A model generated the notes under the pieces. It was given only the letters and a program-made list of their open reading frames with translations, had not been told where the DNA came from and did not search any database. A DNA stretch of 51,344 nt from Gammaproteobacteria bacterium (GTDB taxonomy: Bacteria; Pseudomonadota; Gammaproteobacteria; UWMA-0217): assembly GCA_026981985.1 (NCBI GenBank), contig JALSHZ010000108.1, positions 1 to 51,344 of the forward strand. The letters are read 5' to 3'. Both the position numbers and the translations under genes were made by a program. This document shows positions 30,448 to 32,738 of this stretch, one piece after another. Numbering within the stretch: position 1 is the first letter of the stretch; every line of letters begins with the position of its first letter.

Positions 30448-31320
30448 ATGACGACAATGCGCTTTGCATCAACCAGCCAATACCAACAATGGCAGCAAGA
30501 CAAACTCGCCGCAGCCGCCACAGCAGGCGACGTTCATCCAATCGATAACCCCGACAATCCATCAGCAGAACAAATCGCCGCCATTGCGCAGCAAGTGACG
30601 CAATGCGGCTTTGCGCTGTACCGGCTGCCCGAGGGGTTTACCGCCTCGCGGCAGTGGCTGATCGACTTTGGTGAGCATTTCGGCCTGCGTCGGCTCGACA
30701 GCAATCTGTGCAGTGACCCGGACAGCATTTCGACACTGCGCGACAGCGGCGACAACCAGCGCAAGCGGGGCTATATCCCCTACACCAACCGCCCGTTGAA
30801 CTGGCACACCGATGGTTACTACAATCCCCCTGACCAGCAGATCGGCGCCTTCCTCCTGCACTGCGAACAAGACGCGGCCAGCGGGGGCGAGAATGGTCTG
30901 ATGGATCCCGAGCTTGCCTGGCTGCGTCTGCATGACGAAAATCCCCGCTGGGTCGAAGCACTGAGCCATCCCGAGGCCATGTCGATTCCTCCCAACATCG
31001 AAGATGGCAAAGAGATCCACGGCTGGATGACCGGCCCCGTCTTCTCGGCACGCGCTGACGGCAAGGGCATTCACATGCGCTACACTGCGCGCAAGCGCAA
31101 CATCCGCTGGCGCGACGATGCCACAACCCTCGCAGCGCTGACGTTTCTTCAAAACCTGCTGGAATCGGAGGAAAATGGCGTCATCTGGCACCGGCTCGCA
31201 CCGGGCGAGGGCGTCATCAGTAACAACGCACTGCACTGCCGCAAAGGCTTTGAAAACGGCTCCGGCAAGCAACGCCTCTACTACCGCGCCAGATACTTCG
31301 ATTACATCAAGAGAACCTGA
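30448..31320 (+). CDS. TauD/TfdA-family Fe(II)/2-oxoglutarate dioxygenase
   Basis: 290 residues from the ATG at 30448 (a GTG at 30424 would add 8). The iron ligands are visible: WHTD at about 119-122 (His120, Asp122) and the distal His263 in SNNALHCRKGF. The 2OG-binding arginine lies in YYRARYF (about 278-284). Substrate is unknown. The stop is followed after 2 bp by the 62-residue gene, and then by the Cas6-like gene with a TGATG overlap, so all three are in one operon. A dioxygenase with a Cas6 homologue is not a combination I know. Confidence 0.88.
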   Translation: MTTMRFASTSQYQQWQQDKLAAAATAGDVHPIDNPDNPSAEQIAAIAQQVTQCGFALYRLPEGFTASRQWLIDFGEHFGLRRLDSNLCSDPDSISTLRDSGDNQRKRGYIPYTNRPLNWHTDGYYNPPDQQIGAFLLHCEQDAASGGENGLMDPELAWLRLHDENPRWVEALSHPEAMSIPPNIEDGKEIHGWMTGPVFSARADGKGIHMRYTARKRNIRWRDDATTLAALTFLQNLLESEENGVIWHRLAPGEGVISNNALHCRKGFENGSGKQRLYYRARYFDYIKRT

Positions 31321-31322
31321 AT

Positions 31323-31511
31323 ATGCTCTGGATCAGCGAAATTTTGCTGCAAAGACACGACATCGATAGCTTCGAGACGCTGAAAGAAGCGATCGAGGAG
31401 CGCGCCCGTCAAGGTGAGATTCACTTTGGCCTGGACGTAAAACCGCCCTTTTCCGATACACCGGACGATTGGGAAGTCGTTCTTGAAACCGCCTTTTCGA
31501 GTGCCCGCTGA
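31323..31511 (+). CDS. 62-residue protein between the dioxygenase and Cas6-like genes
   Basis: The frame starts 2 bp after the dioxygenase stop and its TGA overlaps the next ATG (TGATG), so it is almost certainly translated. It begins MLWISEILLQRHDIDSFETL and has a mixed helix/strand pattern with many charged residues and no membrane segment. I recognise no family. Its place between the two genes suggests an accessory subunit or adaptor. Confidence 0.7.
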   Translation: MLWISEILLQRHDIDSFETLKEAIEERARQGEIHFGLDVKPPFSDTPDDWEVVLETAFSSAR

Positions 31512-32200
31512 TGCTGTACTGGCAAGAGGACGATGACAACGAACCGGTCGAAGCCGATGACGATGTTGTCGATATTGTCTACCGCTTGAACTGCAAGGCG
31601 TTGCCGATCGACCATGCCCAGCCACTGTGCGACGCACTGCATGAGGCATTACCGTGGATCGCCGACGAAGACCGTGTCGCCATTCACACCATCCACATCG
31701 CCGAAGCAGGCAACGGCTGGATGCGTGATGAGCAAAGTGGGCTGCTGCAACTCTCGCGCCGGACCCGCTTCACCCTGCGCGTACCAGCCAGCCGGGTCGA
31801 TGATGCCAATGCGCTGGAGGGGACGACGCTGGATATCGCTGGCCATCCCATGACCATCGGCCCGGGCAACATCAAGAAACTCAGCAAACTGACCACCATC
31901 TTTTCGCGTTACATGGCAGGCGACAACGTCGATGACGAGAACCAATACCTCGAACATGTCTACGAACAACTGATGGCAAAGGGCATCAAGCCGAAGAAGA
32001 TGATGGCGGGTCGTAAACACGTCATCGAAACGGCAGCAGGCCCCTTGGCAAGCCGCATGCTGATGCTGGCGGAACTGGATCAGGACGCTTCCCTGAAGCT
32101 GCAAAAAGAAGGCTTGGGCCCCGGTCGCAAGCTTGGCTGCGGCATTTTCATCCCGCACAAGGGAATCGAAGCGGTCAATAAGGAACAGAAGAACCGCTGA
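31511..32200 (+). CDS. cas6: orphan Cas6/Cmx6-type (MYXAN) CRISPR RNA endonuclease homologue
   Basis: 229-residue protein that matches the Cas6/Cmx6 pattern over its whole length. Visible blocks are VVDIVYRLNCKALPIDHAQP (about 19-38), VAIHTIHIAEAGNGW (56-70), LSRRTRFTLRVPASRV, TLDIAGHPMTIG and the C-terminal glycine-rich RNA-binding loop LGPGRKLGCGIFIPHKGI. Candidate catalytic histidines are His35, His44, His59 and His62. Cas6 cuts repeat RNA in CRISPR precursors, but no other cas gene or array is in this window. It is the last gene of the TauD operon. An acidic N-terminal extension (residues 5-18) is unusual. Family call is strong; function in the absence of CRISPR is open. Confidence 0.82.
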   Translation: MLYWQEDDDNEPVEADDDVVDIVYRLNCKALPIDHAQPLCDALHEALPWIADEDRVAIHTIHIAEAGNGWMRDEQSGLLQLSRRTRFTLRVPASRVDDANALEGTTLDIAGHPMTIGPGNIKKLSKLTTIFSRYMAGDNVDDENQYLEHVYEQLMAKGIKPKKMMAGRKHVIETAAGPLASRMLMLAELDQDASLKLQKEGLGPGRKLGCGIFIPHKGIEAVNKEQKNR

Positions 32201-32223
32201 CATCAGTGCTATACCGATGGAGA

Positions 32224-32371
32224 GGGTGTCGCAAAACGGCACCCTCGCGCGGCGCAGGGAGGTGCCGCCAGATTCAACAACGACTAAGTTGTTGAATCTG
32301 TGAGGAAAGGAAAAATCACACTTTTTCCTTTCCGTGTGTCGCAAAGCCCCGGATGGGCTTTTGCGACACCC
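32224..32371. repeat. hairpin-rich MITE-like element behind the Cas6-like gene
   Basis: Terminal inverted repeats of 13 bp, GGGTGTCGCAAAA (32224-32236) and TTTTGCGACACCC (32359-32371), enclose about 120 bp made of successive stems. These are 32237-32267 (7-bp arms CGGCACC), 32269-32300 (13-bp arms, loop GACTAA), 32304-32333 (12-bp arms, loop TCACAC) and 32336-32369 (14-bp arms with one bulge). The last stem competes with the outer pairing. No obvious target duplication flanks it. It lies 23 bp past the Cas6-like stop, so it would be transcribed with that operon unless terminated. Confidence 0.7.
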
Positions 32372-32531: not shown

Positions 32532-32738
32532 ATGAGCAGCAAGAAAGAAATGATCCAGAAGATGATCGAAATGCAAAAGAAGTTCATGGAGTATGAGCAC
32601 GCCAATGGCGTCGATCCCAAGGACTACTTCAAGCCAGAGTCAGGCCACGAGCTCGACGGCTACCGCGAGGAATACATGAAACTGGCCATGACCGTAGTCG
32701 ACATGGCGCACAAAGAGGTTGGTTCAGAGCCTGCCTAA
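32532..32738 (+). CDS. small conserved-looking protein of unknown function
   Basis: 68 residues beginning MSSKKEMIQKMIEMQKKFME, helical and highly charged, with no membrane segment. GAGGTAG lies 7-13 bp before the ATG, a good ribosome site. A strong terminator follows, so it is a single-gene unit. I do not recognise the family. Confidence 0.7.
   Translation: MSSKKEMIQKMIEMQKKFMEYEHANGVDPKDYFKPESGHELDGYREEYMKLAMTVVDMAHKEVGSEPA

Follow-up and report, generated by a model that had tools for sequence, protein, structure and literature searches.

A lone Cas6-family protein linked to the reverse Dsr sulfur oxidation genes of Gammaproteobacteria

Cas6 ordinarily cuts CRISPR guide RNAs, and to our knowledge few Cas proteins have been reused outside immunity. 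A sequence-only reading of a 51,344-nucleotide stretch of a gammaproteobacterial genome (GenBank assembly GCA_026981985.1, contig JALSHZ010000108.1; hereafter the window) described a Cas6/Cmx6-like gene coupled to genes for a TauD-type dioxygenase and a 62-residue protein, with no CRISPR array beside it. What does a Cas6 protein do in such company? That reading proposed that the Cas6 fold had been recruited to process another structured RNA, perhaps together with oxidative modification of that RNA by the Fe(II)/2-oxoglutarate enzyme. From the analyses below, we consider it reasonably probable that the protein belongs to a Cas6 lineage that was exapted from CRISPR, is now a fixed accessory of gammaproteobacterial sulfur oxidation by reverse dissimilatory sulfite reductase (reverse Dsr, or rDsr), and acts on RNA.

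The window operon encodes a Cas6-family protein

The three genes lie as they had been described, with 2 bp between tauD and p62 and a TGATG overlap between p62 and cas6 (Table 1). We identified a fourth conserved gene, p68, whose homologues occupy the matching position 3' of cas6 in 33 of 60 testable loci and which had no family match above the cutoff in profile searches. Comparison with the closest relative gave NG86 dN/dS values of 0.10 for cas6, 0.04 for p62, and 0.19 for tauD; all three genes are under purifying selection in this comparison.

Table 1. Location of the operon genes and of other features referred to in the text
Feature	Location	Strand	Basis or remark
TauD/TfdA-family Fe(II)/2-oxoglutarate dioxygenase, 290 aa	window, 30448..31320	+	PF02668, E = 7e-19
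p62, 62 aa, conserved, fold class unknown	window, 31323..31511	+	No family match
rDsr-linked Cas6, 229 aa	window, 31511..32200	+	PF09559, TIGR02807, predicted fold
p68, 68 aa, conserved, downstream cluster member	window, 32532..32738	+	Homologues at equivalent place
Strongly folding element, ~150 bp	window, 32221-32371		Immediately 3' of cas6
TauD–p62 divergent from dsrA, genomes without Cas6	L194, 1758-2846; L195, 14135-15267
Oxygenase clusters c10/c16, examples	L050, 10686-11363; L058, 16796-17440		Downstream of dsr loci
Cas6/Cmx6 of a Gloeobacter morelensis plasmid	L172, 2965-3756

The 229-residue protein matched the Pfam Cas6 family PF09559 with 203 bits (cutoff, 26.7; E = 5.6e-60) and NCBIfam TIGR02807 (Cas6/Cmx6) with 131.1 bits (cutoff, 98.85), and the homologues at loci L073 and L130 likewise exceeded the curated cutoff. 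Its AlphaFold model (pLDDT, 85; pTM, 0.81) had as its top PDB fold match the Cas6 of a type I-B CRISPR-associated transposon (CAST) (8fcu/8fcj; TM, 0.74 to 0.79), followed by other Cas6 and Cse3 structures. In profile comparison of sequences, too, this CAST Cas6 is the closest solved relative (E = 7.5e-23). A Gly-rich loop, GLGxGRxxGCG, is present near the C terminus. By profile, predicted fold, and candidate histidine (see below), the protein is a genuine member of the Cas6 family, and the original assignment of the third gene as Cas6/Cmx6-like with a Gly-rich loop stands.

The window also carries, directly after cas6, an element with the ends TGTCGCAAAA.../...TTTTGCGACA. About 15 near-full copies with 84 to 97% identity are scattered across the window genome, the equivalent site in the sister genome (L069) lacks it, and it looks like a MITE-type repeat. 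An Rfam scan of the window returned only weak matches below threshold.

The Cas6 operon is linked to the rDsr genes

The context that gives the finding its meaning, the rDsr cluster, had been missed by the sequence-only reading. Gene maps of 32 relatives and 80 further loci (overlapping sets) revealed the operon order TauD–p62–(c14)–Cas6–DsrC-like–p68, transcribed away from dsrA-dsrB-dsrE-dsrF-dsrH-dsrC-dsrM-dsrK. The gaps between operon genes are short (median, about 12 bp), and c14, which encodes a protein of about 237 aa, lies between p62 and cas6 in about half of the loci. Where at least 4.5 kb of upstream sequence was available, dsrA was divergent from the operon in 48 of 52 loci; three of the four exceptions belong to the window's own family, in which the dsr cluster is on another contig. 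The window genome itself has dsrAB on a separate contig (C75), away from the TauD–p62–Cas6 operon. Counting only testable cases among the 80 loci (this applies also to p68), TauD was present in 58 of 63 and p62 lay upstream of cas6 in 64 of 68, so the linkage of the three genes is conserved in relatives well in excess of chance; a DsrC-like gene followed cas6 in 60 of 64. At least 582 pattern-selected stretches of GTDB genomes hold relatives of this Cas6, and the cluster is carried by the cultured species Thiothrix fructosivorans and Leucothrix pacifica. In the latter (L130), about 3 kb of extra sequence separates TauD from p62, and the remaining cluster is intact. Clusters c10/c16 recur downstream in dsr loci and comprise a 2OG-Fe(II) hydroxylase of the PKHD type (PF13640/PF18331) and a second, probable oxygenase; small unnamed proteins and an Sfum_1244/DUF6866 protein accompany them.

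In order to assess co-occurrence, we tallied Cas6 and dsrA in 95 genomes, about one per family of the class, a sampling in which phylogenetic dependence is reduced but still present. Both genes were found in 32 genomes, Cas6 only in 1 (G070), dsrA only in 3 (G004, G073, and G082), and neither in 59 (Fisher P = 1e-20); the dsrA total (35/95, against 33/95 for Cas6) includes partial matches of >300 bits. Many of the genomes surveyed are draft metagenome assemblies, and in each of the three dsrA-only genomes dsrA begins no more than about 370 bp from a contig end, with the Cas6-side sequence missing from that contig. The absence of Cas6 there is therefore missing data, although its presence is unproven. 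In four genomes (G000, G035, G045, and G060) cas6 and dsrA are on different contigs, and both are retained. Between pairs of genomes, the distance of the Cas6 proteins correlates with that of the DsrA proteins (r = 0.67; 0/2000 permutations), which is consistent with long co-inheritance.

A phylum-wide sample of 219 genomes contained 45 other dsrA-bearing genomes without dsr-type Cas6. In most of those examined, dsrEFH could not be detected next to dsrAB, so these genomes are not clean rDsr controls. Two genomes outside the class (G280 and G193) are clean rDsr cases, and in these TauD and p62 are divergent from dsrA without Cas6 (Table 1). It follows that Cas6 is not essential to rDsr chemistry, and TauD–p62 is probably the older rDsr companion and Cas6 a later addition. 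The dioxygenase thus does not need Cas6, and the suggestion that it oxidatively modifies the RNA handled by Cas6 found no support.

Properties of the partner proteins

The Fe ligands of TauD (H120-x-D122 and H263) are invariant in 64 of 64 homologues, and its nearest solved relative is TmpA (6npb; E = 9e-8). Profile searches gave no family match for p62; its predicted model is confident (pLDDT, 88) and had no fold match in the PDB. The DsrC-like protein fixed beside Cas6 (loci L069 to L148) belongs to the TusE/DsrC family. Canonical DsrC at those loci has both redox cysteines (ACK..GLPKPTGCV; 44/44), whereas the DsrC-like protein ends in RKGGY without either of them in all 71 cases, so that, judging from its C terminus, this paralogue cannot use the two redox cysteines for sulfur relay.

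A palindrome is shared by the dsr genes and the Cas6 operon in relatives

The palindrome TATCCC-N3–5-GGGATA, scored with up to 2 mismatches, was found in 86% of 57 regions between dsrA and tauD, compared with 6% in shuffles. It also was found in 27% of the gaps from dsrC-like to p68 and in 17% of those from cas6 to dsrC-like (1 to 1.5% expected), and it was at background level in dsr-internal gaps. Loci with the palindrome include L081, L094, L109, L131, and L149. In the window genome, dsrA is preceded by a perfect copy, but the relocated operon (TauD–p62–Cas6) lacks one on its upstream side. The palindrome looks like a candidate DNA operator of a sulfur oxidation regulon, and its sharing would imply that dsr and the Cas6 operon are coregulated in relatives. 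We also considered the recurring CCC-N-GGG motif as an RNA hairpin and Cas6 substrate. This was rejected, a DNA operator being more likely because the motif lies upstream of -10-like sequences in the gap from dsrC-like to p68 and is palindromic in both orientations in the gap between dsrA and tauD.

Conserved residues and the predicted action of Cas6 on RNA

Cas6 enzymes often carry a catalytic histidine near the start of the first helix. At this position, dsr-type and bona fide CRISPR Cmx6 proteins have D34-H35 in common, and H35 is kept in 110 of 111 dsr-type sequences; we regard it as the candidate catalytic histidine, an assignment made solely from residue conservation. R84, R90, R133, G209, and G211 are invariant in all 111 sequences. 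Two further histidines, H59 (108/111) and H62 (105/111), are almost always kept in dsr-type proteins but have no counterparts in CRISPR Cmx6. Also missing from CRISPR Cmx6 is an insert at residues ~62 to 73 (GNGW.RP), in which N68-G69-W70 is near-invariant; residues 66 to 69 fall in a low-confidence part of the AlphaFold model. In the tree, the dsr-type sequences form one branch (support, 100/100) apart from CRISPR Cmx6, and the bona fide Cmx6 relatives, which lie within complete cyanobacterial cas operons, form a separate branch.

RNA binding by dsr-type Cas6 is likely, cleavage at H35 appears somewhat more probable than its absence, and action on RNA of the sulfur oxidation regulon is plausible. 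It is possible, if rather unlikely, that cleavage has been lost and that the protein is an RNA- or protein-binding subunit with a Cas6 fold, regulating dsr transcripts or serving as a scaffold for TauD, p62, and the DsrC-like protein. The strongest family-specific conservation is that of the GNGW.RP insert, and a new binding surface may therefore matter more than the nuclease; in addition, many CRISPR Cas6 proteins remain bound to their product. However, a pure binder need not retain H35, which is kept almost throughout.

The favored reading remains that of an exapted Cas6 that acts on RNA. Such a protein would bind RNA belonging to the sulfur oxidation regulon and would probably cut it at a stem-loop in the metal-independent manner of Cas6, and this binding or cutting would adjust the expression of dsr or partner genes once sulfur oxidation has been turned on. 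Candidate substrates would be those dsr mRNA intergenic regions that carry hairpins, and TauD–p62 would be an older rDsr-associated pair that is independent of Cas6. The more specific proposal, of a dedicated endoribonuclease of the sulfur oxidation regulon that is controlled together with dsrA through the palindrome and partnered with a DsrC paralogue lacking the redox cysteines, is tentative and falls somewhat short of probable.

Search for an RNA substrate

No RNA substrate of Cas6 was identified in the dsr intergenic regions analyzed. Their alignments gave no consensus RNA fold, the regions being too divergent for good alignment, and an Rfam search of 8 dsr loci returned nothing at the gathering score. 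With no substrate found, the earlier idea that the protein processes another specific structured RNA gained no support.

In 77% of loci, a strong stem-loop (median z, -3.25) lies in the gap between dsrC and dsrM, and its sequence changes freely. Cas6 might be a processing nuclease of the polycistronic dsr mRNA that cuts at the base of this stem-loop (and of one between dsrA and dsrB), although we find this doubtful. Such a cut would leave upstream segments with a protective 3' hairpin and hence at higher levels, and the hairpin persists despite complete sequence change. Cas6 enzymes, however, usually recognize a stem by its particular sequence, and no such sequence is conserved here; the hairpin also is present in 3 of 5 rDsr operons without detected Cas6 (L156, L175, and L187), so it was rejected as a Cas6 substrate. 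In Allochromatium vinosum, the dsrEFH and dsrC transcripts exceed that of dsrA (PMC3397948), as mRNA processing would predict, but dsrC also has a promoter of its own (PMC3368242), and this can account for the difference. The stem-loop itself (L072 to L147, L156, L175, and L187), with or without Cas6, is possibly an mRNA stabilizer or attenuator.

Independence from CRISPR

Repeat scans revealed no CRISPR array in the window, as had been claimed for the surroundings of cas6, and none up to about 10 kb away at the 112 loci scanned; a candidate array at L041 was rejected as an in-frame coding repeat. Neighborhood gene maps, in which Cas3, Cas5, Cas7, Cmx8, and Cas1 were sought, contained no conserved cas cluster, whereas genes of these types are present at the cyanobacterial Cmx6 relatives. 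No phage-borne copies of this Cas6 were found in viral contigs. Cas6 and dsrA occur together in the absence of cas1 in five single-contig genomes (G022, G037, G047, G083, and G085) and in G042, a genome of 1.1 Mb. On a Gloeobacter morelensis plasmid, another Cas6/Cmx6 gene lies close to a cupin gene and to a gene of the PAPS reductase family, and no cas gene is annotated up to 3 kb away (Table 1); this is possibly a second CRISPR-free setting for Cas6.

The protein could in principle process crRNA in trans for CRISPR systems elsewhere in the genome. Most type III loci apparently have Cas6 provided in trans (PMC12669027), and the window genome has both cas1 and cas10 loci. Against this, the physical linkage is to dsr and not to cas genes. 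Furthermore, cas1 was found in 15 of 33 Cas6 genomes (18 lacked it) and in 19 of 62 others (P = 0.18), and a clear Cas10 in only 5 of 33 and in 5 of 62, respectively (P = 0.31); neither is associated with Cas6. In the window genome, the Cas10 (type III) locus on C103 includes a PF10040 Cas6 of its own. The locus on C74 has a type I-C-like gene order, as read from its open reading frames; subtype I-C uses Cas5. On C103 and C74, therefore, no CRISPR system was identified that would depend on a Cas6 from elsewhere; a second, short Cas10 contig (C138) is also present. A trans-acting CRISPR Cas6 is thus largely refuted already, and we consider it very improbable. Together, the profile and fold matches, the rDsr linkage, and the lack of association with cas1 or cas10 bear out the view that a Cas6 fold has been recruited outside CRISPR. 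That it is a mere passenger kept by chance beside dsr is scarcely credible: operon neighbors can persist without a common function and the window's own copy sits away from dsr, but Cas6 accompanies dsrA in about 30 families, is retained in the four genomes where the two are on different contigs, has a low cas6 dN/dS (0.10), and persists in the 1.1-Mb genome.

Discussion

The Cas6 of the window belongs to a widespread case of Cas reuse, in hundreds of sulfur-oxidizing bacteria, that is tied to a biogeochemically central pathway. A CRISPR-independent Cas6 beside sulfur oxidation genes suggests that a major energy pathway includes an RNA step not recognized so far, and it predicts an RNA of that kind in sulfur oxidation. 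If the endoribonuclease reading is true, an RNA-processing step derived from CRISPR has been built into central energy metabolism. The linkage also explains why such genes receive automatic "CRISPR-associated" labels in genomes without CRISPR.

The annotation "Cas6/Cmx6" and the protein family were already known; what appears to be new is the lineage, together with its partners and setting. Our literature search, which covered few subscription papers, found no paper in which a lone Cas6 is connected with TauD or with dsr, and the claim that no system of this composition has been described agrees with the literature searched. In term searches of PMC3368242, PMC3397948, and PMC11406059, no mention of Cas6 or TauD as part of the Dsr system was found. 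The rDsr genes flanked by the Cas6 operon in relatives are those of the dsrABEFHCMKLJOPNRS cluster of A. vinosum.

One of the closest known systems is the type I-MYXAN Cas6/Cmx6 (TIGR02807; cyanobacterial cas6-cas3-cmx8-cas7-cas5), which is of the same profile family and fold and, like the dsr type, keeps D34-H35 and the Gly-rich C-terminal loop. The two share only ~23 to 32% identity and fall on separate branches (100/100), and the dsr type has the extra GNGW insert. Unlike type I-MYXAN, dsr-type Cas6 has no Cas3, Cas5, Cas7, Cas8, Cas1, or array and is set in an rDsr locus. The type I-B CAST Cas6 (8fcj/8fcu) belongs to the Cascade complex of a transposon system as one of its subunits, whereas dsr-type Cas6 is without those partners. 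Solo-Cas4 and the Myxococcus dev operon are cases in which Cas-family genes are found or reused outside immunity (PMC5704561 and PMC8730458). The dev operon keeps an apparently intact CRISPR system, unlike the lone dsr-type Cas6, and of these two cases neither is a lone Cas6 fixed to an energy metabolism operon.
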